A stretch of DNA of 64,000 bases from Kineosporia corallincola (GTDB taxonomy: Bacteria > Actinomycetota > Actinomycetes > Actinomycetales > Kineosporiaceae). The DNA lies in contig NZ_JAHBAY010000002.1 in the NCBI RefSeq assembly GCF_018499875.1, positions 186,001 through 250,000 of the forward strand. The letters are read 5' to 3'. Under the pieces are notes generated by a model. It was not told the origin of the DNA and made no database searches. It was given only the letters and a program-made list of their open reading frames with translations. Made by a program: the position numbers and the translations under genes. This document shows, in pieces, positions 3,285 through 31,589 of the stretch; position 1 is the first letter of the stretch, and the number at the start of each line of letters is the position of its first letter.

Positions 3285-4519
3285 GAACCGGCGTCCTGCT
3301 GCGGATCTGGGCCGGTGACACCGGGGCACGCACCGGTTTCCAGATCTTCCAGTTCCTCCTGCCGGTGGTGGCCGTCACCTCCACCACCGCCACCGCGACC
3401 GAGGTGGGGCTGCTGGGCGCCGTGCAGTTCCTGCCGGTCGTGTTGTTCTCCCTGGCCGCGGGCAGCCTGGTGACCCGCTTCGACGCCATGCTCCTGCTGC
3501 TGGTCAGCAATGTGCTGCGGCTGGCGGCGGTCGGCTACCTGACCGTGGCCGCGCTGGCCGGATCGCTCGGGCTGGGCGACCTCATGCTGGCCGGGTTCGT
3601 CGTGGGCACCGCCACCATCGTCTACGACGTCACGTTCCAGTCCACGGTGCCCCGGGTCGTCGGCCCGCAGTCCCTCCAGAGGGTCAACGGCCTCTTGCAG
3701 GGCAGCATCTCGGTGGTGCAGATGGGGGCGCCGGCCCTGGCCGGGTTCCTCGTCGCCGGGCTCGGCGGAGCCGGTTCGTTCGCCGTCCTCACCGGTGTCT
3801 TCTTTCTGGTGGCGGCTGGTTTCGCCACCCGGACGGTGAACACCGGCGGCATCGTGACCACCCCGGTGTCGGTCGTCGAGGGCCTGAGATACACCTGGCG
3901 CGACCGGTACGTGCGGGCGATCTGCACGCAGTCGGCCGTCTTCAACCTGCACGAGCAGGCCTTCATGACGGTGTTTCTGGTGTACGGGCTGCGCGAGGTG
4001 GGCCTGGGCAGCGGCGCGATCGGGTTCGCCGTCGGCGCGTCCAGCCTCGGCTCCCTGCTGGGTGCCCTGGTGGCCGGCCGCCTGGCCCGGGTGTTCCACT
4101 TCGGCCGGGTGGTGTCGTTCTCGCTGCCGGCCGCGGCCCTCGCCCTGCTGCTGGCCTCGCTGCTGCCGGCCGGGTACGTGCTGCCCGCCTTCGCCGTCGC
4201 CCTGGCGGTCAACGGGTTCGCCCTCGGCCTCTACAACGTCAATGCCGTGTCGCTGCGCCAGATCACGCCCCCGCCCGAGTTCCTCGGTCCGGTGACGGCG
4301 GCCTACCGCATGCTGTCGTTCGGCACCATCCCGCTGGGCGCGCTGATCGGGGGCATCCTGCTGGACCTGGTGCCCGGCCGGGTCGCCCTCACCGTCGTGG
4401 CCGTCTCCCTGCTCGTGCTGACCTGCCAGATCTTCGCCACCCCGGTGAGGTCGCTGGCGTTACTGCCCTCGCCGGCGGTCCCGCCCGGCGAGCCGATGAC
4501 GGAGGCCGTCGATGGCTGA
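3281..4519 (+). CDS. MFS transporter (MFS_3/EntS-like exporter)
   Basis: 412 aa starting at GTG 3281, which overlaps the ATP-grasp stop. It has about 11-12 hydrophobic segments in two halves. The N-terminal block LRIWAGDTGARTGFQIFQF and the loop after TM2 (GSLVTRFD) resemble the siderophore/macrolide efflux branch of the major facilitator superfamily. Longer in-frame extensions exist but would run deep into the ATP-grasp gene. Its place between a ligase and an acyltransferase suggests export of, or self-resistance to, the product of this locus; the direction of transport is inferred. Confidence 0.88.
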   Translation: MRTGVLLRIWAGDTGARTGFQIFQFLLPVVAVTSTTATATEVGLLGAVQFLPVVLFSLAAGSLVTRFDAMLLLLVSNVLRLAAVGYLTVAALAGSLGLGDLMLAGFVVGTATIVYDVTFQSTVPRVVGPQSLQRVNGLLQGSISVVQMGAPALAGFLVAGLGGAGSFAVLTGVFFLVAAGFATRTVNTGGIVTTPVSVVEGLRYTWRDRYVRAICTQSAVFNLHEQAFMTVFLVYGLREVGLGSGAIGFAVGASSLGSLLGALVAGRLARVFHFGRVVSFSLPAAALALLLASLLPAGYVLPAFAVALAVNGFALGLYNVNAVSLRQITPPPEFLGPVTAAYRMLSFGTIPLGALIGGILLDLVPGRVALTVVAVSLLVLTCQIFATPVRSLALLPSPAVPPGEPMTEAVDG

Positions 4520-5774
4520 GGTCCACTGGTTTCCCTCCGTCGCACAGGTCCCCGAGCGGTGGTGGGACGACGACGCGGCCGTGCCGATCGACCGGCGCAG
4601 GCGCTTCCGCCGGTTCCGGGACGTCGTCGAGGGCGAGCACACCTTCGTGCTCTCCGTCGGGTCGCCGGGCGATCCGGTGATCACCTGCGGCCACGTCAGC
4701 TCGCCGGCCTCGGGGCTGTTCAGCGACCCGTGGAAGCTCTGGAGCAGCGACCAGTTCCTGCGCCTGGACGGCGTCGCGCCGGACGAGGCGGCGGCGATCA
4801 CCGCCCACCGCGACGCGCTGCTGGCCCGCCTGACCGGTGGCGACGCCGGCGTCGTCGCCGGGGGAGCGGGTGTCCTGCACGAGCGGCTGGGTGGCGCTCT
4901 CGTGGTGCGCGGCCTGGACTCCAGCGAGGTGCTGCACGCCGGTGGTGCGCCGGCGTCCTCCACGGAGGCCGCCACGACGCTGCGCGAACTCCAGCGCAGA
5001 GCCTCGGACAGCGACCTCGGGGTGGCTTTTCCGTATGTCGACCGCGCCGACGCCGGGCTGCTCGCCGCCCTGTCCGAGACCGGCTTCGGGCTGGGCTCGG
5101 TGACGGCCACCAACATCTTCGACCTGCCGCCGCGCGACTCCTTCGACGATCTGCTGGGCCCGTTGCCCGGCCGGGTCCGTTACCGGTTCCGTAAGGAGTG
5201 GAAGGACTTTCACGCCCAGGGCCTGACCCTGGAGGAACTCGGCATGGAAGAGCACGTGCACGACGTGGTCGCGCTGGAGACCGGCAACCGGGTCAAGCAC
5301 GGCGGCACCGCCGACCAGCAGCGGCTGATCGGCGTGCGCCTGGCCATGGCCCGCCTGCTCGGCGGCAATCTGCGGGTCAAGGGCGTGCGCGACGACCGGG
5401 GCGAGCTGATCGCGTGCAGCATCGACCTGGTCGACGCGGACCGGCACCTCGGCATGGTGTTCGGCCAGCACGAGACCCGCAGCAGCGAGCTGGTCTACCC
5501 CACGCTGGTGTACGCCTGGCCGCTGCGGCAGGCCGTCGCGGCGGGGGCGACGCAGGTGCGCATGGGATTCGAGGCGTTCGCTCCCAAGACGTTGCGCGGA
5601 AGCCGTCTGGAACGGCGGGTCTTCGCGTTCTGGCACCCCCGGCCGGCCGTGCGTGCGGCCGCCGGCGAACTGCTGTCGTTGCTGGACGAGCGGCTGTCGC
5701 GGGGTGTCCTGGACGGTGCCCGCACCACCGAGAGCGCGGGCCGGCACTGGTCCTTCGCCGGTGCGAAGGCCTGA
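4512..5774 (+). CDS. FemAB/GNAT-like acyltransferase
   Basis: A 420-aa protein whose start overlaps the MFS stop by 8 nt. The C-terminal half has features of the large GNAT-fold acyltransferases (Acetyltransf_6/FemAB-like): RVRYRFRKEWKDF near residue 220, MVFGQHETRSSELVYPTLVYAWPLRQAVAAGA near 315-345, then MGFEAFAPKTLRGSRLERR. The N-terminal half probably forms a second, degenerate GNAT domain. Such enzymes move acyl or aminoacyl groups onto amines. As the last gene of a ligase/exporter operon it may tailor the same metabolite. The acyl donor and acceptor are unknown. Confidence 0.75.
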   Translation: MAEVHWFPSVAQVPERWWDDDAAVPIDRRRRFRRFRDVVEGEHTFVLSVGSPGDPVITCGHVSSPASGLFSDPWKLWSSDQFLRLDGVAPDEAAAITAHRDALLARLTGGDAGVVAGGAGVLHERLGGALVVRGLDSSEVLHAGGAPASSTEAATTLRELQRRASDSDLGVAFPYVDRADAGLLAALSETGFGLGSVTATNIFDLPPRDSFDDLLGPLPGRVRYRFRKEWKDFHAQGLTLEELGMEEHVHDVVALETGNRVKHGGTADQQRLIGVRLAMARLLGGNLRVKGVRDDRGELIACSIDLVDADRHLGMVFGQHETRSSELVYPTLVYAWPLRQAVAAGATQVRMGFEAFAPKTLRGSRLERRVFAFWHPRPAVRAAAGELLSLLDERLSRGVLDGARTTESAGRHWSFAGAKA

Positions 5775-14787: not shown

Positions 14788-16059
14788 GTGAGCACACCGG
14801 ACGGCCGCCGGCCCGATCTCAAGCTGTCCGGCCGGCTGGCCCTCGACCGCGCCGTCGCCGCCCTGGAACAGCTGATCGGCGGGATCACCACCGGCTCGCT
14901 CGCGCTCCTGGTGTCGTTCCTGGTCCTGGTCACGGCCGTGCTCTGCGTGGCCGGCGTGGGACTCCTGCTGGCCCCCGTCGTCCTCCAGTTCGTGCACCAG
15001 GTGGCCGGCCGGGAACGCGCCCGGCTGACCCGGTGGGGCGCACCCGTTCTCGGCCCGGGCGAGCAGATCGTGGACCTGCGCGCCGCACTGGCCGACCCGA
15101 CCACCCGCCGCGAGCTGGCCTGGCTTCCGGTGCACGCCTCGCTCGGCCTGCTGCTCGGCCTCGTCGGTCTGCTGCTGCCGCTGTTCGCGGTGCGCGACGC
15201 CACTTTTCCGCTGTACTACCCCCTGCTGCCCGAGGGCTACGCCGGGGCCTCGGTGTCGATCGGCGAGCTCGCCGACATCCGGACCTGGCCGATGGTGCTC
15301 GTCGTGTTCATGATGGGCCTGGGCTGGACCGCGGTCATCATCGGCCTGACCCCCGCGATGGCCCGCCTCCAGGCCCGCCCGGGACGCCGGCTGCTGGCCC
15401 CGCCACCCGGCACCGACCTGACCGGCCGGATCGCCGAGCTCACCTCCTCGCGCGCGGCCGCCCTCGACGCCCACGCCACCGAGCTGCGCCGCATCGAGCG
15501 CTCGCTGCACGACGGCACACAGAACCGCATCGTCGCCGTCACCATGCTGCTCGGCACCGCCCGCCGTGCCCTGGCCCGCGACGACCGGGCCGCCGCCGAG
15601 CAGGTTCTCGCCCAGGCCCAGGACGCCGCCGAGGACGCGCTCGCCGAGCTGCGGGGCGTGGTGCGCAGCATCCTGCCGCCGGTGATCGAGGACCGCGGCC
15701 TGGCCGGTGCGCTGTCGGGACTGGCCGCCAACTGCGGGGTTCCGACGGCGGTGGACGTCGACGTGCCCGGGCGCTGCCCCGCCTCCACCGAGGCCACGGC
15801 CTACTTCGTGGTGGCCGAGGCACTGACCAACGTGGCCAGGCATTCTGGGGCCGGTTCGGCCACTGTTAGGCTGCGCCGCCGTGACGCGCGACTGCTGATC
15901 GAGATCACCGACGACGGCCGCGGCGGGGCCGACGAGTCCAACGGCTCCGGGCTGGCGGGCCTGCGCCGGCGGGTCGAGGCCCACGACGGCAGCGTGGTGG
16001 TGAGCAGTCCCGCGGGTGGACCTACGGTGCTGAAAGTGGAGTTGCTGTGCGGATCGTGA
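14788..16059 (+). CDS. NarL-type two-component sensor histidine kinase
   Basis: 423 aa from GTG 14788. Four membrane helices lie at about residues 35-70, 115-135 and 168-190 (the first region holds a pair), then a HisKA_3 dimerisation domain with ELRRIERSLHDGTQNRI (phospho-acceptor His about 241) and a HATPase_c domain with VVAEALTNVARHSGA and the G-box DDGRGG. The family autophosphorylates on His and passes phosphate to a LuxR-type regulator. It overlaps the next gene, its probable partner, by 13 nt. The short extracellular loops suggest sensing in or near the membrane. The longer frame (ATG 14740) would include the promoter-like sequence, so I prefer 14788. Confidence 0.9.
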   Translation: MSTPDGRRPDLKLSGRLALDRAVAALEQLIGGITTGSLALLVSFLVLVTAVLCVAGVGLLLAPVVLQFVHQVAGRERARLTRWGAPVLGPGEQIVDLRAALADPTTRRELAWLPVHASLGLLLGLVGLLLPLFAVRDATFPLYYPLLPEGYAGASVSIGELADIRTWPMVLVVFMMGLGWTAVIIGLTPAMARLQARPGRRLLAPPPGTDLTGRIAELTSSRAAALDAHATELRRIERSLHDGTQNRIVAVTMLLGTARRALARDDRAAAEQVLAQAQDAAEDALAELRGVVRSILPPVIEDRGLAGALSGLAANCGVPTAVDVDVPGRCPASTEATAYFVVAEALTNVARHSGAGSATVRLRRRDARLLIEITDDGRGGADESNGSGLAGLRRRVEAHDGSVVVSSPAGGPTVLKVELLCGS

Positions 16060-16703
16060 TCGCCGAGGACGACGCCCTGCTGCGCGAGGGCCTGGCGTCG
16101 TTGCTGCGGGCGGAAGGCCTGGACGTGGTCGCCACGGCGCCCGGGCCGGAACAGTTCCTGACCGCGGTGGACGAGCAGCGACCGGACGTGGCCATCGTCG
16201 ACGTGCGGATGCCGCCGACCCACACCGACGAGGGCATCGTCGCGGCGGTCGAGGCCCGTCGCCGGCACCCGGACCTGGCGGTGCTGGTGCTGTCGGCCTA
16301 CGTGGAGCAGTCGTTCGCCACCGACCTGCTGGCCGGCGGCGCGCACCGGCTGGGCTACCTGCTGAAGGAGCGGGTCGGCCGGGTGGAGGAGTTCCTGGAG
16401 GCGCTCGGCCGGGTGGCCGAGGGCGGCACGGCCATCGACCCGGAGGTGGTGGCCCAGCTGATGACCCGGCACCGGTCCGATCCGGGGATGGAGCGGCTCA
16501 GCCCCCGCGAGCGCGAGGTGCTGGCGCTGATGGCCGAGGGCCTGGGCAACACCGCGATCGCGGCGAAGCTCGTGGTCACCGACGGGGCCGTGCACAAGCA
16601 CATCCGCAGCATCTTCGCCAAGCTCGACCTGGCGCCCACGGACCACACGGACCGCCGGGTGGTCGCCGTCCTCAAATATCTGGAGAACGGCGACCGGCGC
16701 TGA
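16047..16703 (+). CDS. NarL/LuxR-type response regulator
   Basis: 218 aa. The receiver domain has acidic residues in IVIAEDDALL and the phospho-acceptor Asp in AIVDVRMPP (about residue 52), with the switch lysine in YLLKERVGR. The C-terminal LuxR helix-turn-helix is LSPREREVLALMAEGLGNTAIAAKL. The start overlaps the kinase gene by 13 nt, so the two form a coupled pair. Targets are unknown; the divergent excalibur gene and the following sigma gene are candidates. Confidence 0.93.
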   Translation: MRIVIAEDDALLREGLASLLRAEGLDVVATAPGPEQFLTAVDEQRPDVAIVDVRMPPTHTDEGIVAAVEARRRHPDLAVLVLSAYVEQSFATDLLAGGAHRLGYLLKERVGRVEEFLEALGRVAEGGTAIDPEVVAQLMTRHRSDPGMERLSPREREVLALMAEGLGNTAIAAKLVVTDGAVHKHIRSIFAKLDLAPTDHTDRRVVAVLKYLENGDRR

Positions 16704-20266: not shown

Positions 20267-21157
20267 ATGGGAGACACGGCTGAGATCCTGCGCATCCACC
20301 AGGGTGCGGCGTCCACGCTGCCCCGCGCGGTCGCGGTGCTGCTGCTGGACGTCTGGGACGCCGCCGACGAACGGCCCCTGACCTCACGCGTCCTGGTCGA
20401 GGTGCACGAGCCCGGCCTGCCCGCCCACCCCCGCGTGGTGCTGCGCGGCAACGGCGTGGCCTTCGCCATGTTCCTGCGCCAGGACGGCTCCCGGGTGCGC
20501 TCGCTGGCCGCCCGCGCCGTCGCCCTCACCGAGCAGGCCGTGGGCGCCGAGCACCCCTACGCCGCCACCCAGCTCGGGCACCTGGCCGTGGCCCTGACCC
20601 GGGTCGGCGAATGGTCCGAGGCGGCCGAGCTGCTGGAACGCGCCCTGGGCGTGACCCTCGCCGCGGCCGGGCGCTCCGACCTGCGGGTGGCCCGGCACAT
20701 GAACAACCTGGGCCTGGTGCGCCTGCGGCTGGAGGAGACCGAGGCCGGGCTGTCCATGCTGGAACGCGCCCGGTCCATCGCCGAGCAGGAGAACTCCGCC
20801 GGCCCGGAACTGGCCGCCGTGCTGAGCAACCTGGCCAGGGCGCGGCTGCTGGCCGGCGACGCCGACGGCGCCCGGCAGATCCTGTCCCGGGCCACGCAGC
20901 TGGCCGAGCGGCTCGACCGGGTGCGCCGCCCGGAGTCGGCGGCCTACACCAACAACCTCGCGGTGCTGCTGTCGGCGCACCTCGACCTGCCGATCGCCGC
21001 CCGCCCCCTGGCCCGCGAGGCGCTGCGGCTGGGGGAGAGCAGCGGGCACGGCGTCATCGACACCTACCTGCGCAACCTGGCCGTGGTGATGCGGGCCCTC
21101 GGCGAGGAGGAGACCGCCCGCGACCTGGAAGCCCGTGCGGTGCGCCAGATCTCGTAG
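20267..21157 (+). CDS. Tetratricopeptide-repeat protein
   Basis: 296 aa. From about residue 75 on it is all-helical with TPR-like pairs: HPYAATQLGHLAVALTRVGEWSEAAELLERAL, LRVARHMNNLGLVRLRLEETEAGLSMLERAR, GPELAAVLSNLARARLLAGDADGARQILSRA, and ESAAYTNNLAVLLSAHLDLPIAARPLAREAL. The asparagine-rich helix A (NNLGLVRLRL) is typical of TPR_10/TPR_12 repeats in STAND-associated proteins, but no NTPase domain is attached. The first 70 residues are unassigned. It probably acts as a protein-binding scaffold. It converges on the sensor kinase gene with a 2-bp gap. Confidence 0.8.
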   Translation: MGDTAEILRIHQGAASTLPRAVAVLLLDVWDAADERPLTSRVLVEVHEPGLPAHPRVVLRGNGVAFAMFLRQDGSRVRSLAARAVALTEQAVGAEHPYAATQLGHLAVALTRVGEWSEAAELLERALGVTLAAAGRSDLRVARHMNNLGLVRLRLEETEAGLSMLERARSIAEQENSAGPELAAVLSNLARARLLAGDADGARQILSRATQLAERLDRVRRPESAAYTNNLAVLLSAHLDLPIAARPLAREALRLGESSGHGVIDTYLRNLAVVMRALGEEETARDLEARAVRQIS

Positions 21158-21159
21158 CC

Positions 21160-22047
21160 TCAGGCGACCGGCCGGTCGGTGCCCGGGATCCGCAGCGTCA
21201 CCAGCGTCCCCCCGCCCTCCGGCGTCGTCCAGGTCAGCCGGGCGCCCAGCGAGTCGGCCCGCTCACGCATCCCGATCCGCCCGAACGACGTGCCCGCCGG
21301 GTCCACCGGCTCGTCGTCGCCGATGCCCACCCCGTCGTCCCGCACCGTGACCACGATGTGCTGGCCCTCGCGCCCCGCCCGCACCACCACCGTGCGGCAC
21401 GCCGCGTGGTGCAGCGCGTTGGCCAGCGCCTCCTGCACGATCCGGTAGATCGCCACCTGGGTGTCGGGCGGCAGGTCGGCGGGCAGGCCGGCGACGTCGT
21501 GAGTGACCGTGACGCCGGTGGTCCCGTCCGGTGTGCCCGGCACCTGACTGCGCCGGGCCAGGTCCTGCACCGCGGCCGTCAGGCCCAGCGCGTCCAGGGC
21601 CAGCGGCCGCATCTGGGTGATCAGGTGCCGCAGCACCCCGATCTGCTCGTGCACCATGTCCCGCGCGTCCTGCACTCCGGCGGCCAGCTTCTCCGGGTCC
21701 TGCGTGCGCGAGAGCCCGGCCAGCCACAGCTCCAGCGCGGCCAGGTCCTGCAACGTCTGGTCGTGCAGTTCCTGTGCCCAGTGCCGCCGTTCGGCCTCCT
21801 GCCCCTGGAACCGCGCCCGCAGCTGCCGCACCCGCCGCGCGTCGGTGGCCAGCCCGGCCTCCCGGATCGCCAGCGCCGCCGTGACCAGCAACAGCACCGA
21901 CGGCACCAGCAACAGCAGCAGCACCGGCTGGTCGCGGCCGGTCACGTGCCACAGACCCAGCACCGCCGGCACCGCCCCGAGCCCGGCCGCCCCCAGCAGC
22001 CAGGCCCGCACCGTGCGCCGCGTGTCCGGTTCCACCCGCGTCCTCAC
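21160..22047 (-). CDS. NarL-type sensor histidine kinase
   Basis: 295 aa, GTG start overlapping the response-regulator stop (GTGA). Two N-terminal membrane helices at about residues 14-60 have a very short outer loop. The HisKA_3 box is WAQELHDQTLQDLAALELWL with the phospho-acceptor His at about 95. HATPase_c has IVQEALANALHHA and DDGVGIGDD. A protein with almost no extracellular domain suggests membrane or cytoplasmic sensing. It is the second gene of a regulator-kinase pair. Confidence 0.92.
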   Translation of the reverse strand: MRTRVEPDTRRTVRAWLLGAAGLGAVPAVLGLWHVTGRDQPVLLLLLVPSVLLLVTAALAIREAGLATDARRVRQLRARFQGQEAERRHWAQELHDQTLQDLAALELWLAGLSRTQDPEKLAAGVQDARDMVHEQIGVLRHLITQMRPLALDALGLTAAVQDLARRSQVPGTPDGTTGVTVTHDVAGLPADLPPDTQVAIYRIVQEALANALHHAACRTVVVRAGREGQHIVVTVRDDGVGIGDDEPVDPAGTSFGRIGMRERADSLGARLTWTTPEGGGTLVTLRIPGTDRPVA

Positions 22048-22673
22048 GTCAGCAACCCCAGACGCCGTGCGGCGTCCACCAGTTCGGACCGGTGGTGCGC
22101 GCCCAGCCGCGCCCGCAGACCCGCCCGGTGCGCCTCCACCGTGCGCAGGCTGATGAACAGCTCGTGCGCGATCTCCGCGTTCGTGTGCCCCCGCGCCAGC
22201 AACCGCAGCACGTCACGCTCGCGCTCGCTGAGCCCCCCGGCGACCGGCTCGGCCCGCAGCAGCTGCGCGCCCAGCTGCGGCTGGAGGTAGGTGTCGCCGG
22301 CCATCACCACCTCGATCGCCCGGATCAGCTCGGCCGCCGCGGCGTCTTTCAGCAGGTAGCCGTGTGCGCCCCGGCCCAGCGCCTCGCGGGCGAAACCGGG
22401 ATCGTCGTGCATGGTGAGCACCAGGATGCGCGGCGCCGACGGCAGCCCGAGCAGGGTCGGCACGGCGTCCAGGCCGTTCTCCCGGCCCAGCGCGATGTCG
22501 AGCACCACCAGGTCGGGTGAGGCCCCCACCACCGTGCCCGCCACCTTGTCCAGGTTGCCGCACTCACCCACGACGTGGCAACGCGGATCGGCCTCCAGCA
22601 GTGCCCTCAGGCCGGTGCGCACCATCGTGTGGTCGTCCGCGAGCACGATGCGCCAGGCCGGGGCTTCACTCAT
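22044..22673 (-). CDS. NarL/LuxR-type response regulator
   Basis: 209 aa. Receiver domain with IVLADDHTMVRTGL and phospho-acceptor Asp in LVVLDIALG (about residue 59), switch lysine in YLLKDAAAA, and LuxR helix-turn-helix LSERERDVLRLLARGHTNAEIAHEL. The frame is open upstream, but ATG 22673 gives the family start and lies 6 nt after TACGCT, which fits a leaderless message. A perfect 8-bp dyad lies just upstream and may be its own binding site. It is co-transcribed with the kinase gene that follows. Confidence 0.93.
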   Translation of the reverse strand: MSEAPAWRIVLADDHTMVRTGLRALLEADPRCHVVGECGNLDKVAGTVVGASPDLVVLDIALGRENGLDAVPTLLGLPSAPRILVLTMHDDPGFAREALGRGAHGYLLKDAAAAELIRAIEVVMAGDTYLQPQLGAQLLRAEPVAGGLSERERDVLRLLARGHTNAEIAHELFISLRTVEAHRAGLRARLGAHHRSELVDAARRLGLLT

Positions 22674-23284: not shown

Positions 23285-24238
23285 TCAGGGGAGCCGGCGG
23301 AAGTCGTGCCCGGCGGCCAGCCGGCGTTCCAGCAGTTCCCGTAGGGACATGCTCTCGCCGTCGCGGGCGCCCCGGCCCACCGCCAGAGGTGGTGGTGTCG
23401 GGGCGATCCGCACCCCGCGCAGCCGTGCCGTCAGCCCGGCCGGGGCGATGAGCAGGTAGAACTCGCCGTCCTCGCCCACCGCCTGCGGACCGCGGGCCTG
23501 GAGGTACCAGCCGCTCAGCCCGGTGCGGTAGCCGCCGGACCCGTTGTACGCCCGGGCCTTCAGCGGTTCGGGCGGCAGTCCCAGCTCGCGCGCCCGGGCC
23601 AGGAACCCGGCCACCAGTTCCCGCGCCCGCTGCGACTCCGCGGCCTCGCTGCGCCGGCGGGCCCGGTCGTGCGCCTCGAAGGCCTCGCGGCGGCGGGCGG
23701 GCCAGTCGGTGGCGGTGTCGACGGGCTTGGAGTCGGGGCTGGTTCCGGCAGCAGGGTCGGAGCTGTGGCCGTGGCTGGGGACAGGGCTGGTGCTGGAACC
23801 GGCGTCGGAGTGGGTGCTGGGGTCCGTGCCCAGGTGCGTGCCGGCCTCGGAGTTGGTGCCGGCGGCGTGGTCGGTGCCCGGGCCGAGGTGGGGATCGGAG
23901 TCGGTGCCCGTGCTGGAGCCGCCCGGGGTGCCGGCGATGGAGTCCGGGCCGATGTCCGTGCTGGTGCTGGTTTCGGGGGCGGAATCGGCGGCCGGTTCCG
24001 GTGGGGTTGATTCCAGTGAGGCCGGTTCCCGGGCGGCTGTTTGCAGCGAGACCGGTTCCAGCGAGACCGGTTCCAGCGAGACCGGTTCCGGTGAGGCTGG
24101 TTCTGGTGAAACTGTTTCTGGTGAGGCTGGTTCCGGGGTGGCTGAGGTGGGCGGGGCCGGTTCCGGAGTGGTCTGGCCGGTGGCGGTGATGCGCGGTGTG
24201 GGTGCGGGTGCAGGCCGGTCCTCGTCGTCCGTGTGCAT
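23285..24238 (-). CDS. Hypothetical protein with repeat-rich acidic N-terminus
   Basis: 317 aa. Residues 1 to about 175 are low-complexity and rich in Pro, Glu, Ser, Thr and Ala, with pentapeptide repeats of PEPAS/PEPVS/LEPVS type encoded by 15-bp DNA repeats. A charged helix (WPARRREAFEAHDRARRRSEA) leads to a compact C-terminal region of about 110 residues (ELVAGFLARARELG, SGWYLQARGPQAVGEDGEFYLLIAP). The C-terminal part looks folded but matches no family I know. ATG 24238 lies 6 nt after TACGGT, again suggesting a leaderless message. No membrane segment is present. Confidence 0.65.
   Translation of the reverse strand: MHTDDEDRPAPAPTPRITATGQTTPEPAPPTSATPEPASPETVSPEPASPEPVSLEPVSLEPVSLQTAAREPASLESTPPEPAADSAPETSTSTDIGPDSIAGTPGGSSTGTDSDPHLGPGTDHAAGTNSEAGTHLGTDPSTHSDAGSSTSPVPSHGHSSDPAAGTSPDSKPVDTATDWPARRREAFEAHDRARRRSEAAESQRARELVAGFLARARELGLPPEPLKARAYNGSGGYRTGLSGWYLQARGPQAVGEDGEFYLLIAPAGLTARLRGVRIAPTPPPLAVGRGARDGESMSLRELLERRLAAGHDFRRLP
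24014..24133 (-). repeat. Eight degenerate 15-bp tandem repeats inside a coding region
   Basis: Units of the form CAGCGAGACCGGTTC run in register. Three are identical at 24044-24088, flanked by diverged copies. They encode the PE/LE-(P/T)-(A/V)-S pentapeptides of the hypothetical protein. The identical central copies suggest recent expansion. Confidence 0.85.
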
Positions 24239-24623: not shown

Positions 24624-26681
24624 ATGGGAGACCGGACGGCGCTGGAGCGGCGCCAGGGCACGTTCAGGCTGCTCGACGCCCTGATCGGGCTGCCGGTGGT
24701 GCGGGGTCGTCGCACGCCGGTGTCACCGCCGGTCCTGGTGGTGAGCGACTGGCGCGGGGGCGGCAAGACGGCGGTCCTTGAGTGGCTGTCCGAGGTGCTG
24801 GAGGCACGCCGGATTCCTTTCGCACAGCTGGATCTCGCGCGCAACCGGCCGGCCACGGAGCGGGAGATCGTGTTCGCGGCGGCCTACCAGGTCAGCCGGG
24901 ACTGGGGGCGTCCCTACCGGAACATCGGGTTCGCCCGGCTCGGCACCGTGCGCCAGGTGATGGACATGACCCTGAGCGTCGACCCGCAGGCCGACCGCAA
25001 GGGCGCCCGCGGCGAGATCGAGCGCAAGCTCCAGAGCAACCGCCTGCCGATGAGCGTGCTGCGGGGCGAGTTCGCCGACGCGGCGGGGGCTCTGGTCGGC
25101 AAGGCGGTGCGGGGGCTGGGGCCGCTGGGCCCGTTCGCCGACCTGATCATGGCCGTCGCCCGTCTGGTGCCGGAATGGCTGCTGGGCCGGCTGCGCGGGT
25201 TCCGGCTGGGCCGTCAGGTCGTGCTCGGCCGGCGCTACACCTGGTTCGACGCGCGCACGGCCGGCCGCGGGCCGGGCCATCCCGCGGACGTGCTCGTCGA
25301 CCTCTACCAGCGCACCCGGCCCGCGGTGCGCAACCGCACCGACAACGTCGAGCACGTGGACAAGCTGGTGCGCGAGGCCTTCCTGGCCGACCTGACCGAG
25401 CACTTCTCCGGCCGCCGGGCCCGCCGCCTGCTGGCCTACGGCTGCGTGCTGATGCTCGACAACGCCGACGACCTCACCGGCCGTCGGTTCGTCACCGACC
25501 TGGCCGAGACGCTGAGCGCCTCGACGCCGCTGACCCCGCTGACGGTCGTGGTCACCGACCACGGTGAGAACGCCTACGGCGAGGGCGTGATCGACCTCGG
25601 GTCGGACGCCGACGAGAAGCCGTGGCAGCCGCGGCCCACCCGCCCGCAGGACCCGGACACGCGGATCGGGCTGCGGCGGCTGGCCGCGCTGGAGCGGCCG
25701 GACGTCGGGGTGGTCCTGGAGCAGGAGGGCGTGCCCGGCGGCGGTACCCGGGTGACCCACCGGCTGATGCACGAGCTGACGGACGGGCACCCGCTCGGCA
25801 CCCGCCGGGTGGCCGAGGCGCTGCACCGGGCCTCGGCCCGCGACGGCGGCGGCTCCTGGGACCCGGAACATCTGGGATGGCCGCGGCGCATCCTGGCGCT
25901 GCCGGTGCACGACGGTGCCGGGCAGGGCGAGTCACTGCGTGACTGGCTGCTGGGGGAGCTGACCTCCGACCTGACCCCCGACGGCACCGGGACCCGGCGC
26001 CCGGCGCACGACCTGGACACCCTGGTGACCTGGGCGCCGGCCGCCGACCGGTCCGAGGTGGAGGCCCTGGCGGCGCTGATCGGCCGGCGGGAGTCCTACC
26101 TCCTCGACTACCGGGACAAGGTGCTGGGCCCCGGCCGGGGCGTCACGGCCGCCGTGGCCCGGCGGGTTCTGCTGGAACGGCTGGCCACCCGGGACGCGAG
26201 ACGGAACGACAGCTGGGACAGCGTCTTCCGGGCCCTCGCGCGAGCAGGACGGCGGACGCCGGAACGCGAGGTCGCGTGCCGGGTGTCGCTCGGCGAGGTG
26301 CGGCCGGCGGCCACGTACCTGGCCGGCCGGCTGGGCGCCGACCCGCCGGCCGACTGGCTGGCCCGGCTGCACCGGATCGCCGCGGCGCCGCACCGGCCCC
26401 TCACCCCGGAGGTGCCGCCGATCGAGGAGTTCCACCGGCGCAGCGAGATGTTCGACGAGGAGCTCGGGCAGGACCAGGGACCGCCCCTGCTGCGGGTGGC
26501 CGGGATCTGGCTCATCGCCCTGTGGATCGCCCAGGACCGGCTGGCGGGTGCGCACCGCAGGTACCTCTACGACCAGATGATCCGTCAGCTGGCCGCCGTG
26601 CGCATCGATTCTCGCACCGACAACACGCCTTTCGACAGGGAAGAGAACCGCTACAAGGAGGAGAGGGACTTCTGGCCATGA
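24624..26681 (+). CDS. P-loop (STAND/AAA-like) NTPase
   Basis: 685 aa from ATG 24624, chosen because GGGGG lies 5 nt upstream; an in-frame ATG at 24570 lacks this. Walker A is SDWRGGGKTAVL (about residues 41-52) and Walker B is CVLMLDNADDL (about 274-284), followed by a sensor-like strand LTVVVTDHGEN. Between them is a hydrophobic helix pair (PLGPFADLIMAVARLVPEWLLG, about 167-188) that could touch the membrane. The C-terminal 350 residues are helical and unassigned, with LHRIAAAPHRPL and VAGIWLIALWIAQDRL. It overlaps the next gene by ATGA. I infer a cytoplasmic signalling or regulatory ATPase that works with the tethered binding protein. Confidence 0.72.
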   Translation: MGDRTALERRQGTFRLLDALIGLPVVRGRRTPVSPPVLVVSDWRGGGKTAVLEWLSEVLEARRIPFAQLDLARNRPATEREIVFAAAYQVSRDWGRPYRNIGFARLGTVRQVMDMTLSVDPQADRKGARGEIERKLQSNRLPMSVLRGEFADAAGALVGKAVRGLGPLGPFADLIMAVARLVPEWLLGRLRGFRLGRQVVLGRRYTWFDARTAGRGPGHPADVLVDLYQRTRPAVRNRTDNVEHVDKLVREAFLADLTEHFSGRRARRLLAYGCVLMLDNADDLTGRRFVTDLAETLSASTPLTPLTVVVTDHGENAYGEGVIDLGSDADEKPWQPRPTRPQDPDTRIGLRRLAALERPDVGVVLEQEGVPGGGTRVTHRLMHELTDGHPLGTRRVAEALHRASARDGGGSWDPEHLGWPRRILALPVHDGAGQGESLRDWLLGELTSDLTPDGTGTRRPAHDLDTLVTWAPAADRSEVEALAALIGRRESYLLDYRDKVLGPGRGVTAAVARRVLLERLATRDARRNDSWDSVFRALARAGRRTPEREVACRVSLGEVRPAATYLAGRLGADPPADWLARLHRIAAAPHRPLTPEVPPIEEFHRRSEMFDEELGQDQGPPLLRVAGIWLIALWIAQDRLAGAHRRYLYDQMIRQLAAVRIDSRTDNTPFDREENRYKEERDFWP

Positions 26682-28180
26682 GCCACTGGACCGCGCTGGA
26701 GCAGGCGGACACCGAGGGACTGTTCCAGCTGCCCTCGGGACGCCGCCGTCGTGTCGTCGTCCTGCTGCTGGTGGCCGCGCTGGTGCTGGCCCTGGGCGGC
26801 TGGGGGATCGCCACGGTGGTGCGCGCCTGCGGCGGCCTGGGGTCGGGGGTGACCTCGGTGGGTGGCGAGTGCGTCGGTGTCAGTGACAGTTTCGTGTTCG
26901 ACGAGGACGAGTACGCCGGGGTGATGTCGCGGATCACGGCGGAGAACGCCTCGATCGGGCAGGGTTCGGCGGTCACCGTGGCCGTGCTCGGGTCGTTCAC
27001 CACCGACGACACCAGCGCGGTGTCGAAGGCGGAGATGCGCCGCCAGCTGGCCGGGGCCTACGTGGCGCAGCGCCGGCACAACACCAGTGGCACCGGCGTG
27101 CGGATGAAGCTGGTGGTGGCGAACTGGGGCAGCCACGAGCAGGAGTGGTCGCGGGTGGTGGACGGTCTGGTGGAACGGGTGGACGACGAAGACCCGCTGG
27201 TGGCGGTCACCGGCATGGGCGTGAGCGTCACCCAGACCCGGGACGCCGCCCGGCGGCTGTCGCAGGCCGGCATCCCGATGGTCGGCACGATCACCACCGC
27301 CGACGAGCTCACCGCCGTCGACGGGTACTTCCGGGTGTCGCCGCCCAACCGCGAGTACGTCTCCAGCCTGCGCAGTTACGTGCAGCGCACGAAGGGACTG
27401 AAGCGGGCGGTGCTGATGGCCGACCAGGGACCGGCGTCCAACGACCTGTTCACCGCCAACCTGGCCGAGGACATGAGGACGGCGTTCGCCCGGGAGATCG
27501 GCCTGACCCCGATCATCCAGTTCACCGGCACCCAGGACCCGCAGGGTGTGCAGCCCAACTCCTTCGCCGTGAAGGCCGTGGAGGCCTGCCGCGACGACAA
27601 CGACCTGCTGCTGTACGCCGGCCGCTCGAACGACCTGGCCCAGCTCCTGAACATCCTGGTCGAGCGCTGCGGCCACCGGAAGCTGACGGTGATGACCGGC
27701 GGCTCGGACGACCTCGGCCGCTTCCGCGACCTGTCCGCCGACCTGGCCGCCGCCAACATCACCCTGGTCTACGCCAGCGGTGCGGACGCCGTGGGCTGGC
27801 TCGCCGGGCAGGACACGCCGGCCGCGTTCGGCGACTTCCACAAGTATTTCGCCGACGCCGGTCTCGGCGACGACACCGAGCTCGACGACGGCGCGGTGAT
27901 GTCGGCCCACGACTCCGTGCGGGTGGTCTCCACCGCGCTCGAGCTGGCTCTGGAAGAGGGGGTGACCCCGGGCGAGAACACCCGCCACGACGTCATGCAG
28001 GCGATGAGCAGCCTGAACGGCGACTTCGAGGTGCAGGGCGCCACCGGCGACTTCAGTTTCCAGGTGCGGCCCCCGGCCACGGGCGACCCGGTGGGCAAAC
28101 CGGTGCCGGTGGTGAGTATCCCGCAGGCCCGGCAGCAGGGGCCCACCTACCGCACCGAGCCCGGGCTCATCCGGCGGTGA
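26678..28180 (+). CDS. Membrane-anchored type-1 periplasmic-binding-fold protein
   Basis: 500 aa. An arginine-rich cytoplasmic start (LPSGRRRRVVVLLLVAALVLALGG) leads to one membrane helix at about residues 25-48, so the rest lies outside. The outer domain resembles the Leu/Ile/Val-binding (receptor-family ligand-binding) fold: VTVAVLGSFTTDD, VAVTGMGVSVTQTRDAARRLSQAGIPMVGTITTADEL, YFRVSPPNREYVSSL, RAVLMADQGPASNDLF, and a C-terminal ALELALEEG block. There is no lipobox and no permease or ABC ATPase nearby, so it looks like a receptor rather than a transporter part. AAGGAGGAG precedes the ATG, which overlaps the NTPase stop. Confidence 0.8.
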   Translation: MSHWTALEQADTEGLFQLPSGRRRRVVVLLLVAALVLALGGWGIATVVRACGGLGSGVTSVGGECVGVSDSFVFDEDEYAGVMSRITAENASIGQGSAVTVAVLGSFTTDDTSAVSKAEMRRQLAGAYVAQRRHNTSGTGVRMKLVVANWGSHEQEWSRVVDGLVERVDDEDPLVAVTGMGVSVTQTRDAARRLSQAGIPMVGTITTADELTAVDGYFRVSPPNREYVSSLRSYVQRTKGLKRAVLMADQGPASNDLFTANLAEDMRTAFAREIGLTPIIQFTGTQDPQGVQPNSFAVKAVEACRDDNDLLLYAGRSNDLAQLLNILVERCGHRKLTVMTGGSDDLGRFRDLSADLAAANITLVYASGADAVGWLAGQDTPAAFGDFHKYFADAGLGDDTELDDGAVMSAHDSVRVVSTALELALEEGVTPGENTRHDVMQAMSSLNGDFEVQGATGDFSFQVRPPATGDPVGKPVPVVSIPQARQQGPTYRTEPGLIRR

Positions 28181-28312
28181 CGGGGAGCCCGGCCACCAGG
28201 ATCCCGTCACAACTTGCCATCGCTTCGGTCGCATTCCGCTCCCGGACCGCCACGCAACAGAATCGTCCTCTAAGTTGCACGACGTGCATGGAAGCCGCTG
28301 GGCGCAGGACGC

Positions 28313-29119
28313 ATGAGCGACAACAGGAGCGGTGCCACCGGCCGCGGGCGGCGGATCCTGGTCCGGGCCGGGTTCTGGCTGGCCGGGGCCGCGCTCGCGG
28401 CGGTCTTCTTCCTGGCGCCCGCCCGGCTGGGCGAGTGGATCGGGCGGCGGGTCACCGGCGAGGACACCTCGCAGCTGGGCACGGTGCTGAGCTGGTCGCT
28501 GGAGGCCGGCTGGATCACCTTCCTGGTGCTGCTGGCCGCCGGGCTGGTGCGCCAGGCCCGGGACGGCCGCCGCGACCGCGACCGCCGGGCCGGCTGGGAG
28601 GCCGTCGCCCGCGAGCAGGCCGCGGTGCGCCGCCAGAAGCACCAGTACACCGAGGCGCTGGCGAATCTCCAGACGCTGCGCCGTCTTCTGCTGCTCGGCG
28701 ACGGCCTGACCGGTATGACCCGGCTGACGTTCGCGGACTGCGCCCTGGTGGAACCGCGGGCCGCGCACCGTAACGGGCCGCGGGTGCCGACCGTGGTGGA
28801 CACCGGCGGGCGGGTCGAGATCAGCCACGACGCCATCGTGTACCGCGGCGCCGAACGGCAGGAGACCTGGGAGTTCGACCACCTCCAGCAGGTGATGCAC
28901 GCCGCCGACCACGTGGCGATCGCCGTCGGCAACCGCAAGAGCGTCAGCGGGGTGCTGCTGCCGCCCGCCTTCCGGGCGGTGTTCACCTTCGCGGTGGACG
29001 CCCGCCGGCACGGCCTGACCTGGACCGACCAGGTCAGCCGCCGGTTCAACGCGATCGAGACCGAGCTGGTGCGGGGCCTGGAGGCCTCCCGCGGCCAGGA
29101 GAGCGGTGTCCCGGTCTGA
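28313..29119 (+). CDS. Two-helix membrane protein with cytoplasmic domain
   Basis: 268 aa. Two membrane helices lie at about residues 16-37 (AGFWLAGAALAAVFFLAP) and 60-80 (WSLEAGWITFLVLLAAGLV). A charged helix (RQARDGRRDRDRRAGWEAVAREQAAVRRQKHQY) follows and then a cytoplasmic beta-rich domain (about 140-250). I do not recognise the family. It follows the tethered binding protein by 132 bp on the same strand and may belong to the same unit. The end converges on the oxidase gene with a 4-bp gap. Confidence 0.68.
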   Translation: MSDNRSGATGRGRRILVRAGFWLAGAALAAVFFLAPARLGEWIGRRVTGEDTSQLGTVLSWSLEAGWITFLVLLAAGLVRQARDGRRDRDRRAGWEAVAREQAAVRRQKHQYTEALANLQTLRRLLLLGDGLTGMTRLTFADCALVEPRAAHRNGPRVPTVVDTGGRVEISHDAIVYRGAERQETWEFDHLQQVMHAADHVAIAVGNRKSVSGVLLPPAFRAVFTFAVDARRHGLTWTDQVSRRFNAIETELVRGLEASRGQESGVPV

Positions 29120-29123
29120 CCTC

Positions 29124-30176
29124 TCAGTCGATGGACGACGGAACCACCCCGTCCAGCACCGCCCCGGCCAGCTGCTCCCCGATCAGTGGCGCGAACTTGA
29201 ACAGGTTTTCGCCGTACACCGCGATCGTGCGGTCCCGGCGCAGGTAGTGGATGCCGTCGTCGAGGTCCGCGTACGGCGTGCAGTAGATCTCGTCGACGAT
29301 CCGCGGTTCCACGTGCTCCAGCTCGGCGCGCACGTAGTCGAGGGTCGCGGCCCGGGCCGCCTCCAGCGCGGCCGTCCGGCCGACCTCCCAGCGGGTGGCC
29401 GAGGCGCCCAGCTCCAGGCCGACGGCCCAGTGCCCGGGCGTACTGGAGTGCTGGTAGGTGGACAGGCCGCCGGCGGTGCGGGTGATCCAGGCGGGCGGCC
29501 CGGCGGGTGCTTGCTCCCGCAGCGGGAACGTGAACCGGGCGTGATGGGTCAGCGCGGCCGGGGCGTCCAGGCCCACCTGCGCGGCCAGCGCCGAGGTGCC
29601 CGCCCCGGCGGCCAGGACCACGGTCTCGAAACGCCCGCCGCAGTCACCGTCGCGGGTACGCACCAGCACGCCGTCCGACGTCTCCTCCAGGCCGCTCACC
29701 GCCGCGGTGCGCACGGCCGGCGCGCAGATCCTGGACAGGAACTCCCGGACCCGGTCCACGCGGATCACCCCGCCGGCCGGGTCGGCCAGGAAGTGTTCCG
29801 GGAGCCGGGCCGCGGGCAGCCGGGGCCTGTCGTCGTCCTCGAACGAAACGGTGAACGGCGCCCCCGCGGAGGCCATGGCCCGCGCCCAGGGCAGCACGTC
29901 CTGCTCGGTGGGACCGCTGATCACGGTGCCGGCCGGCTCCACGAGCTGCCGCCCGGCCCGCCTCTCCCACCCGGTGAACAGCCGGCGGGAGTGCCCGGCG
30001 GCGATGACCAGCTCGGGCGCCCGGTGGGCGTAGCGGAAGATCCGCGAGTCCCCGGCCGAGCGCTCGCCCATCACCGCCGCACCCTGCTCGTAGCAGACCA
30101 CGTCGGCCCCGCGTTCCAGCAGCGCGGCCGTGGTGGCCAGCCCGACGACTCCGGCACCGATCACAGCAACTGACAT
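29124..30176 (-). CDS. FAD-dependent amino-acid oxidase (DAO family)
   Basis: 350 aa. The N-terminal FAD-binding motif is VAVIGAGVVGLATTAALLERGADVVCYEQ. Mid-protein is ETVVLAAGAGTSALAAQVG and the C-terminal FAD contact is IAVYGENLFKFAPLIGEQLAGAVLDG, as in the sarcosine/N-methyltryptophan oxidase and D-amino-acid oxidase branch. These enzymes oxidise secondary or D-amino acids to imino acids with release of hydrogen peroxide. The frame extends upstream, but ATG 30176 gives the correct flavin-binding N-terminus. It is divergent from the PLP enzyme gene (81-bp gap), which suggests a joint role in D-amino-acid use. Confidence 0.88.
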   Translation of the reverse strand: MSVAVIGAGVVGLATTAALLERGADVVCYEQGAAVMGERSAGDSRIFRYAHRAPELVIAAGHSRRLFTGWERRAGRQLVEPAGTVISGPTEQDVLPWARAMASAGAPFTVSFEDDDRPRLPAARLPEHFLADPAGGVIRVDRVREFLSRICAPAVRTAAVSGLEETSDGVLVRTRDGDCGGRFETVVLAAGAGTSALAAQVGLDAPAALTHHARFTFPLREQAPAGPPAWITRTAGGLSTYQHSSTPGHWAVGLELGASATRWEVGRTAALEAARAATLDYVRAELEHVEPRIVDEIYCTPYADLDDGIHYLRRDRTIAVYGENLFKFAPLIGEQLAGAVLDGVVPSSID

Positions 30177-30257: not shown

Positions 30258-31589
30258 GTGGCCTCAGACGTGGGCAACAACAGCAGCAACGATGTGAACG
30301 GCGAAAGACTCCGGGCCAAGGCCCTGGACGAGCTGGCCGACCTGCCGGTGGCGGTGACCGAGAAGGGCTGGGGCAGCGTGGTGAGCCGGGGCGTGGTGAC
30401 GGCCCGGTCGCTGCGGGCCAACGCGCTCGGCCTGCACGACGGCGACTTCACCTTCCCCCTGGCCGTTCTCGACCGGTCGGCACTGGCGGGCAACATCACG
30501 GCGATGGCCCGGTGGTGCGAGCAGCACGGGGTGCGGCTGGCACCGCACGGCAAGACGTACATGTCGCCGGAGATCGCGCACCAGCAGCTGGCGGCCGGGG
30601 CCTGGGCGATCACCGTGGCCGGCATCGCGCAGCTACAGGCCTACCACGCCTACGGCGTGCGCCGGTTCGTGGTGGCCAACCAGCTGGCCGACCGGGCCGG
30701 CGTGGGCTGGCTGGCCCGGCAGCTGGCGGTGGACGCCGACCTGCGGGTCTGGGTGAACGTGGACTCGGTGGCCGGGGTGGAGTTCCTGGCGGCGGAGCTG
30801 TCGCGGGCGGGGGCCCGCCGGCCGCTGGAGGTGCTGGTCGAGCTGGGGCACCCGGGCGGGCGCACCGGCGCCCGCTCGGTGGAGACGGCCCGGGCGGTGG
30901 CGGTGGCGGTGGCCGCGTGCCCGGACCTGAACCTGGCCGGGGTCAGCGGCTACGAGGGCACGCTGGGGCATCACGGGCTGCCGGAGGAGAACGAGCGGGT
31001 GGCGGCCTGGGCGGCCGGGCTGGCCCGGCTCGGCGACGACCTGTTCAGCGCCGGTCTGCTGGCGCCCGGCTACGTGGTGTCGGCGGGCGGCAGCGCGTTC
31101 CCCGACGTGGTCACGCACACGCTGAAACTGTGGGCGTACGGCGGGGATCCGGTGATCGTGCTGCGCAGCGGCGCCTACGCGGTGCACGACGACGGCTACT
31201 ACGCCTCGGTGACGCCGAGCGGCCGGCAGGCCGACGGGCCGGTGCTGCGCCCGGCGCTGTCGGTGTGGGCGCCGGTGCTCTCGCGCCCGGAGCCGGAGCT
31301 GGCCCTGCTGCTGCTCGGCCGCCGCGACGCCGGTTTCGACGAGGGCCTGCCGGTGCCGCGCGAGGTGCGCCACCGGGACGGGCTGCGGGTGCCGGCCCAG
31401 GACATGGAGGTGACCGCGCTCAACGACCAGCACGGCTTCCTGCGGGTGCCGGCCGGCAGCGCCCTGGGCCCGGGAGACCTGGTGCACGTGGGCATCTCCC
31501 ACCCCTGCACCACGCTCGACAAGTGGCGCGTCATCGCGGTGGTCGACGAGGACGAGCAGGTGGTCGACCTGGTGCACACGTTCTTCTGA
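30258..31589 (+). CDS. D-serine dehydratase/D-threonine aldolase-like PLP enzyme
   Basis: 443 aa. It has an alanine-racemase-type barrel with the PLP lysine in LAPHGKTYMSPEI (Lys about 99), VVANQLADRAGV, VLVELGHPGGRTGARS and VSGYEGTLGHHG. The C-terminal metal-site domain contains ALNDQHGFLRVP and GISHPCTTLDKW. It fits the fold-III D-serine dehydratase-like (amino acid deaminase) group. I keep the longest GTG start (30258); a second GTG at 30270 is possible and the ribosome site is unclear. The neighbours, a D-amino-acid-type oxidase and an amidohydrolase remnant, support D-amino-acid catabolism. Confidence 0.85.
   Translation: MASDVGNNSSNDVNGERLRAKALDELADLPVAVTEKGWGSVVSRGVVTARSLRANALGLHDGDFTFPLAVLDRSALAGNITAMARWCEQHGVRLAPHGKTYMSPEIAHQQLAAGAWAITVAGIAQLQAYHAYGVRRFVVANQLADRAGVGWLARQLAVDADLRVWVNVDSVAGVEFLAAELSRAGARRPLEVLVELGHPGGRTGARSVETARAVAVAVAACPDLNLAGVSGYEGTLGHHGLPEENERVAAWAAGLARLGDDLFSAGLLAPGYVVSAGGSAFPDVVTHTLKLWAYGGDPVIVLRSGAYAVHDDGYYASVTPSGRQADGPVLRPALSVWAPVLSRPEPELALLLLGRRDAGFDEGLPVPREVRHRDGLRVPAQDMEVTALNDQHGFLRVPAGSALGPGDLVHVGISHPCTTLDKWRVIAVVDEDEQVVDLVHTFF

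Follow-up and report, generated by a model that had tools for sequence, protein, structure and literature searches.

A STAND-like NTPase gene paired with a gene for a membrane-anchored Venus-flytrap protein in actinomycetes: a candidate two-part transmembrane receptor

A stretch of 64,000 nucleotides from Kineosporia corallincola (contig NZ_JAHBAY010000002.1, positions 186,001 to 250,000; hereafter the window) carries a gene for a predicted nucleoside triphosphatase (NTPase), P0001, whose stop codon shares an ATGA at 26678-26681 with the start codon of the gene for a membrane-anchored binding protein, P0002. An earlier note on this DNA had proposed that these two proteins, together with a protein with two transmembrane (TM) segments, P0003, form a one-operon receptor. 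The three open reading frames (ORFs) are indeed present with the positions, lengths and overlap given there, and the 2TM protein follows the pair. The features of the locus are the following.

24624..26681, + strand: P0001, a 685-aa STAND/AAA_16-like P-loop NTPase with no membrane segment; the NTPase part covers about residues 1-430 and is followed by a mostly helical C-terminal part.
24747..24770, + strand: Walker A-like motif of P0001, residues 42-49 (D-W-R-G-G-G-K-T), from the sequence and alignment columns.
25452..25469, + strand: Walker B-like motif of P0001, residues 277-282 (M-L-D-N-A-D), from alignment columns.
26678..28180, + strand: P0002, a 500-aa membrane-anchored protein with a predicted Venus-flytrap (type-1 periplasmic-binding-protein) ectodomain.
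26753..26809, + strand: membrane helix of P0002, residues 26-44, predicted N-in/C-out from the charge bias of the family.
26828..26887, + strand: signature C51...GECVGV following the helix of P0002, residues 51-70.
27224..27298, + strand: residues 183-207 of P0002, of which S183 and T207 align with a Ser and a Thr of amino-acid-binding relatives.
28313..29119, + strand: P0003, a 268-aa 2TM protein, regarded here as a bystander outside the system.

None of the three proteins matched Pfam, NCBIfam or PADLOC at E <= 1, and a promoter and terminator scan of the locus gave nothing above chance. The profile search of each protein that the earlier note had envisaged was thus silent for the window proteins themselves and productive for their relatives, which matched AAA_22 and AAA_16 on the NTPase side and ANF_receptor and Peripla_BP_6 on the binding-protein side.

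The description of P0002 as one N-terminal helix followed by an outer Leu/Ile/Val (LIV)-type domain was borne out. The protein contains a single hydrophobic segment (residues 26-44), preceded by an RRRR stretch, and AlphaFold2, run with 31 aligned rows, predicted a helix at residues 20-50, with a two-lobed fold following it (pLDDT 87.6, pTM 0.86). The best Foldseek match of this model was 4n0q, a Leu-bound binding protein (E 2.4e-15; TM-score 0.77 of target and 0.55 of query); further matches were other LIV-type proteins and then the ectodomains of mGluR5, GABA-B and natriuretic-peptide receptors. Among the 31 binding-protein rows, ANF_receptor was matched by 11 and Peripla_BP_6 by 9. The outer domain of P0002 is therefore, as modelled, a type-1 periplasmic-binding-protein or Venus-flytrap fold. 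(In addition to the window protein, the structure alignments A4 and A5 included 30 of 34 and 27 of 31 stretches, respectively; they excluded one locus, L109.) Lys and Arg were more numerous before the helix than after it in 62 of 73 ORFs of the family, equal in 9 and fewer in 2, identical loci being kept in this count; by the positive-inside rule, this bias places the binding domain outside the cell. Cysteines C65, C304 and C331 were present in all 31 aligned rows. C51 was found in 20/20 rows of another alignment, A1, and was aligned in only 13/31 rows of A4, in which a Cys no more than 30 residues before C65 was nonetheless present in 31/31. Paired cysteines would fit an oxidising exterior. 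By inspection, the VRAC residues leading to C51 are unlike a lipobox, and fused relatives described below have an internal helix.

Column 183 of the family holds Ser in 29 of 31 rows (Gly in one, Thr in one), and column 207 holds Thr in 27 and Ser in 4. In a profile alignment, T207 fell on the Thr of the LivJ/mGluR5 motif and S183 on a Ser of mGluR5. These LivJ and mGluR residues presumably contact the amino acid, and the match of S183 and T207 with amino-acid-binding relatives makes an amino-acid-like ligand our first guess; the ligand of P0002 is probably of this type. The family is thus similar to LIV-binding proteins and to the ectodomains of class C receptors (Peripla_BP_6 and ANF_receptor) in its type-1 fold and in the Ser and Thr at aligned positions, but differs from them by its single N-terminal helix, by the C...GECVGV signature after this helix and by having an NTPase partner rather than a permease of the ATP-binding cassette (ABC) type.

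P0001 shows the STAND-like Walker A and B motifs that had been noticed in it, namely GGGKT at residues 45-49 and LMLDN, and in addition a GHP at residues 388-390, which we take to be the STAND GxP motif. The corresponding columns are kept in the 28 aligned NTPases: residue 48 is Lys in 23 rows, as in P0001, and Arg in 5; D279 and G388 are invariant (28/28) and P390 is found in 25/28. Pfam recognised AAA_22 in 19, AAA_16 in 18, nSTAND5 in 3 and nSTAND6 in 2 of these rows, and none of them in P0001 itself. The AlphaFold2 model of P0001 (28 rows) had a pLDDT of 82.7 and a pTM of 0.83. The P0001 family resembles STAND NTPases (AAA_16-like, NACHT, NB-ARC) in its Walker A, hhhhD-N and GHP motifs and in its mostly helical C-terminus, and it is mainly these motifs that suggest its membership in the class. 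It differs from them in that the likely sensor is an extracellular domain across the membrane, separate or fused, and in that no N-terminal effector domain was recognised in P0001 (nor any other effector domain by Pfam). A search for P0001 in plasmids gave no match.

If the two proteins act together, their genes should stay together, and the pairing was indeed kept across actinomycetes. A forward search (E <= 1e-10) found the P0002 family in 64 of 394 genomes of the window's class and in 20 of 138 genera, at 78 places; its carriers include Streptomyces, Nocardiopsis, Salinispora and Micromonospora. One of the 78 places holds a further copy of the pair within the host genome (L007:7572-11107; G000:C10), with 51% identity to the binding protein of the window and 38% to its NTPase over most of the latter; this copy is preceded by a gene for a 518-aa one-TM protein. 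Sixty-four of the 78 places lay in the regions that were read (the window, its paralogue and 60 regions) and 14 outside them. In a first set of 42 loci (40 regions, the window and the paralogue), the NTPase was present in 25. The NTPase profile used in this direction was made from 24 NTPases of this first set. A second set, independent of that profile except for three shared loci, was obtained by scanning a collection of 84,980 species genomes with one conserved 9-residue pattern: among 70 matching stretches, 35 encoded P0002 relatives, all of them actinomycete by title, with a separate NTPase gene in 25, a fusion in 7 and neither in 3. A single-protein scan of genome contigs yielded no relative among 130 pattern matches.

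After removal of L080, L083 and L084, which were identical to L037, L041 and L042, 74 distinct loci remained. The NTPase gene lay directly upstream of the binding-protein gene, on the same strand, in 47 of them, the two were fused in 7, and 20 had no profile-recognised NTPase; no other order of the two genes occurred among the 74. The gap between the genes had a median of 13 nt and was at most 10 nt in 22 of the 45 loci measured, as judged with a home-made gene caller. L109, which is outside the tree and the structure alignments, was yet counted as split; at L109:7767-9387, the binding-protein gene is broken into three ORFs next to a full-length NTPase ORF.

The reverse search, with a profile of 17 NTPases in the same 394 genomes, found the NTPase in 31 of them, at 30 full-length places (>250 bits) and 4 weak ones; in both directions, three candidates were scored per genome. 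A binding protein adjoined 29 of the 30 full-length NTPases (27 of 28 fetched loci by profile, the window, and G321 C142 by coordinates). The lone NTPase (L144:8687-10774, in G085) has the same flanks as the paired loci L052, L055, L056, L057 and L059, mostly at 50-97% identity, so that NTPase and flanks are kept and the binding-protein gene is gone; it looks like a loss of that gene. Beside this NTPase, a multi-TM cluster resembles cytochrome c biogenesis by eye.

The fusions are informative on how the two parts may be arranged. Seven were found, in Micromonospora (two, one of them cut by a contig end), Actinophytocola, Actinokineospora, Saccharothrix, Actinosynnema and Allokutzneria, and in their order the NTPase is N-terminal, followed by the membrane helix and by the C-terminal binding domain. 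The 20 loci with no profile-recognised NTPase held further variants of this design. Ten of them (L062, L063, L068 and L070-L076) encode an N-terminal part lacking a Walker A motif (GK[ST] in 0/10), followed by the helix and the binding domain; most of these proteins have one or two extra predicted membrane segments in the N-terminal part. As a class, the Walker-A-less N-termini matched the NTPase in hhalign (probability 98.1, E 1.4e-13, 15% identity), and taken singly 8 of the 10 matched the NTPase profile at a probability of at least 82.6. A further 20 weak-hit proteins, taken from 19 of another 20 loci (L145-L164; no binding-protein gene was called in L162), included 15 that matched the profile of the Walker-A-less class. 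Two other loci encode single proteins (L049:7528-11037 and L050:9165-12212) with TIR_2 (5.7e-25 and 2.5e-24) and a Ser/Thr kinase (Pkinase, 1.5e-47 and 1.4e-45) before the membrane helix and the family's Venus-flytrap ectodomain after it; this TIR-kinase receptor is worth a separate study. L054 has a different N-terminus, helix-turn-helix-like by eye and with no Pfam support, and L064, L065, L105 and L110 have no assigned class, L105 being like the Walker-A-less class by eye.

In a tree of the 74 binding domains, the fused label required 2 changes and the split label 6, as compared with 6.8 and 22.1 when the labels were shuffled. Six of the fusions group in a single clade; L111, the seventh, is found on a long branch within the Walker-A-less class. 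Architecture thus tracks descent, with replacement of the module a few times. A swap of inner modules behind one outer domain, as read from these sequences, is the appearance that a receptor family would have.

We considered the possibility that P0002 is an ordinary binding protein of an ABC importer, with its permease elsewhere and the NTPase as a neighbour by chance. The fold of P0002 would suit this role, and a distant relative (H5, 25% identity) is annotated as an ABC transporter substrate-binding protein. Importer permeases (BPD_transp_2) occur elsewhere in 27 of the 27 genomes checked, their distance not being settled by the matches listed. Such an assignment does not account for the pairing seen in both search directions, for the fusions or for the internal helix of the fused relatives. 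It is also at odds with the neighbourhoods, which the earlier note had described, for this locus, as free of ABC permease and ATPase genes: a Pfam scan of 10 window neighbours detected no ABC gene, and a motif search of the regions flanking 57 loci brought up only 7 ABC-ATPase-like genes. In a census of 117 genes lying within two genes of 32 named units, in which the 25 commonest of 127 families were seen and the remaining 102 each had at most 2 members, the commonest were NACHT (6) and NNH1 (5), and ABC_tran (3), ABC2_membrane (2) and Peripla_BP_6 (2) were rare; BPD_transp_2 was not among the 25 and so belongs to at most 2 of the 117 neighbours. Immediately downstream in two Nocardiopsis-type loci lies a gene for an ABC ATPase or an ABC-2 membrane protein, which is of the exporter type (L082 tested). 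The genes following the pair in L107 and L108, which had been taken for possible importer parts, match Esterase_PHB and were rejected as such. ABC permeases are therefore not regular neighbours of the binding protein, and the importer explanation is largely refuted; we give it hardly any weight.

We propose instead, with a probability of about 0.74, that P0001 and P0002 each supply one half of a single transmembrane receptor. The observations behind this proposal are the pairing, the gene order, the fusions, the predicted outer fold, the NTPase motifs, the charge bias and the exchange of inner modules; the physical contact between P0001 and P0002, the class of ligand, the direction of signalling and the nucleotide switch are what we infer from them. 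P0002 would display its Venus-flytrap domain outside the cell on a single-helix anchor, and P0001 would sit in the cytoplasm as a STAND-class NTPase docked against the inner side of this helix, corresponding to the N-terminal part of the same chain in the fusions. In view of the latter, a coupling of outer sensing to the inner NTPase is the natural reading. The ligand, small and probably amino-acid-like, would close or re-pair the outer domains, and the helix would relay its binding to change the nucleotide state or the assembly of the NTPase, whose helical C-terminal part would then engage an output partner. STAND NTPases are usually seen as sensors of intracellular things and LIV-type binding proteins as parts of importers; a conserved unit linking the two across the membrane would fit neither the two-component nor the ABC scheme and would be a receptor type apart from both. 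With the binding-protein family in 64/394 class genomes and an NTPase profile match in 31/394, it is common enough to study, and the ectodomain is of a type that permits direct ligand screening, which makes the question testable. Compared with the earlier note, this proposal is broader, as it includes fusions and module exchange, and narrower, as it involves two genes rather than three.

Several observations weigh against this proposal. The reverse search was not independent, since its profile came from NTPases that have a binding protein next to them, and all but 5 of its 30 places lay in loci already read (of these 5, four were paired and one was not). The P0002 family is sporadic, since at E <= 1e-10 it is present in just 1 of 13 genomes of the taxonomic family, the window's own, and the binding protein occurs without the NTPase in three Nocardiopsis-group loci (L045, L047 and L087). 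Residue 42 of P0001 is Asp where Gly stands in 26 of 28 NTPase rows, and the P-loop Lys is replaced by Arg in the 5 rows mentioned above and by Ala in L051 and L053; these replacements suggest that NTP hydrolysis may be dispensable in part of the family. The best Foldseek match of P0001, 6mfv (a STAND protein with TPR), was weak (E 2e-3, TM-score 0.15); 0/694 matches reached E 0.001, and the others near the top were mainly AAA+ and ORC proteins. Among the Walker-A-less N-termini, L068 and L075 fell short singly (probabilities of 25.1 and 11.5), though the start assigned to L068 is probably too far downstream, and profiles built from the other nine, with the tested one left out, matched the two at 62.9 and 38.9 bits. 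Finally, no conserved output gene was found. As a separate observation on L045 and L047, the gene after the binding protein looks by eye like an M3 peptidase.

The wider, three-gene version of the receptor did not survive, whereas its core, the NTPase with the tethered binding protein, did. P0003, which has two hydrophobic segments (residues 15-33 and 61-79), starts 132 nt downstream of P0002 on the same strand, and a simple scan finds no terminator in the gap, as would be expected for a third member. Yet tblastn (E 0.01) against the DNA of the 76 remaining loci in the two forward sets detected no relative of it, and there was none elsewhere in the host, including beside the second copy of the pair. 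Among 12 other genomes of the taxonomic family, one (G009) has P0003, 53% identical, surrounded by relatives of six further window genes in the same order (14788-16059, 16047-16703, 20267-21157, 23285-24238, 29124-30164 and 30258-31589); neither P0001 nor P0002 is found in that 20-kb region, nor P0002 in the rest of the genome. This suggests that the pair was gained by, or lost from, an older neighbourhood that includes P0003. The latter was therefore rejected as a third member, and a three-gene system appears very improbable.

What a two-part receptor of this kind would report is a further question, on which we weighed two accounts that overlap with the receptor proposal. According to the first, it would serve nutrition, development or quorum sensing by reporting an outside amino-acid-like ligand to a regulatory NTPase, as GlnH/GlnX do to PknG. 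The LIV-type fold and the conserved Ser and Thr shared with amino-acid-binding relatives agree with this. There is also a precedent in which a binding protein controls an actinobacterial kinase: in the GlnH/GlnX/PknG system of mycobacteria and corynebacteria, as presented in two papers (PMC6069109, PMC9769921), a binding protein signals to a cytoplasmic enzyme. In that system, however, binding protein, membrane protein and kinase are separate, whereas P0002 combines anchor and binding domain and its partner is an NTPase. No Ser/Thr kinase was found among the 10 window neighbours (GlnX itself was not searched), and a kinase fusion occurs only in L049 and L050. The absence of any regulator family from more than 4 of the 117 neighbours (the most frequent being TetR_N) and the sporadic presence among close relatives speak against this account, which we consider a serious candidate if somewhat short of an even chance.

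According to the second, the pair would be an outward-facing conflict or immunity receptor, whose ectodomain senses attack (phage, competitor or envelope damage) and whose NTPase recruits effectors for a defensive or suicidal response. The STAND class of P0001 and the patchy distribution of the P0002 family are in line with this, and so, circumstantially, is the presence of the same ectodomain behind TIR_2 and Pkinase in L049 and L050, both of which have a kinase part similar to defence-library kinases (PD-T4-6, at 2.5e-68 for L050). Also circumstantial is a gene of about 1070 aa directly upstream of the pair, on the same strand, in six Streptomyces-group loci (L058, L088 at 2289-5507, L091, L094, L096 and L098), with matches in all six copies to NNH1 (at 6.2e-39 or below) and to NACHT (at 5.6e-25 or below). 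The six NACHT loci form one 6-row clade, so probably represent one event; two of the NACHT proteins were tested and had no PADLOC match at 1e-4. A conserved setting is shared by a set of six Streptomyces-group loci, which is more like the situation of a long-resident gene. The NACHT gene, being confined to six loci of one clade, was rejected as a general partner. In the window, no effector domain is recognised in P0001 and no NACHT or TIR is encoded among the 10 neighbours. The window proteins have no PADLOC match, and the 28 NTPases gave only weak matches to five PADLOC families, each in at most 2 members (best E 0.00023).

The closest published parallel on the conflict side is System 4 of Kaur et al. 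2020 (EACC1 with a caspase; PMC7159879), which includes instances with a TM segment and an extracellular periplasmic binding protein (PBP) domain in the variable position. It is likewise actinobacterial and membrane-associated, but its PBP belongs to a set of as many as 50 variable domains, whereas the P0002-type domain is the constant part here. No caspase was found in the 10 window neighbours or among the 25 commonest families of the 117 neighbours (no EACC1 model was searched). We rate the conflict account as somewhat unlikely. A more far-reaching version would be a bacterial receptor class of its own, a 'membrane NLR' turned outward, in which the STAND NTPase in the cytoplasm is under the direct control of a Venus-flytrap domain outside the cell and the inner module can be exchanged (an active NTPase, a Walker-A-less one, or TIR plus kinase). 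Multicellular actinomycetes would use it for immune or kin recognition directed outward; this idea is speculative and we hold it to be rather doubtful.

No published description of the NTPase-binding-protein pair was found with broad terms in open-licence PMC papers, which is weak evidence of absence. The main text of PMC8195603 uses none of the terms periplasmic, PBP and solute-binding, and PMC9602780, which deals with the stimulation of receptors by binding proteins, does not use the term NTPase.

Concerning the surroundings of the pair, the 10 window neighbours assessed by Pfam include a DAO oxidoreductase gene and a gene of the D-serine-dehydratase type. About 2 kb upstream of the pair, on the minus strand (21163-22673), lie genes for a histidine kinase (HisKA_3 and HATPase_c) and a LuxR-type response regulator.

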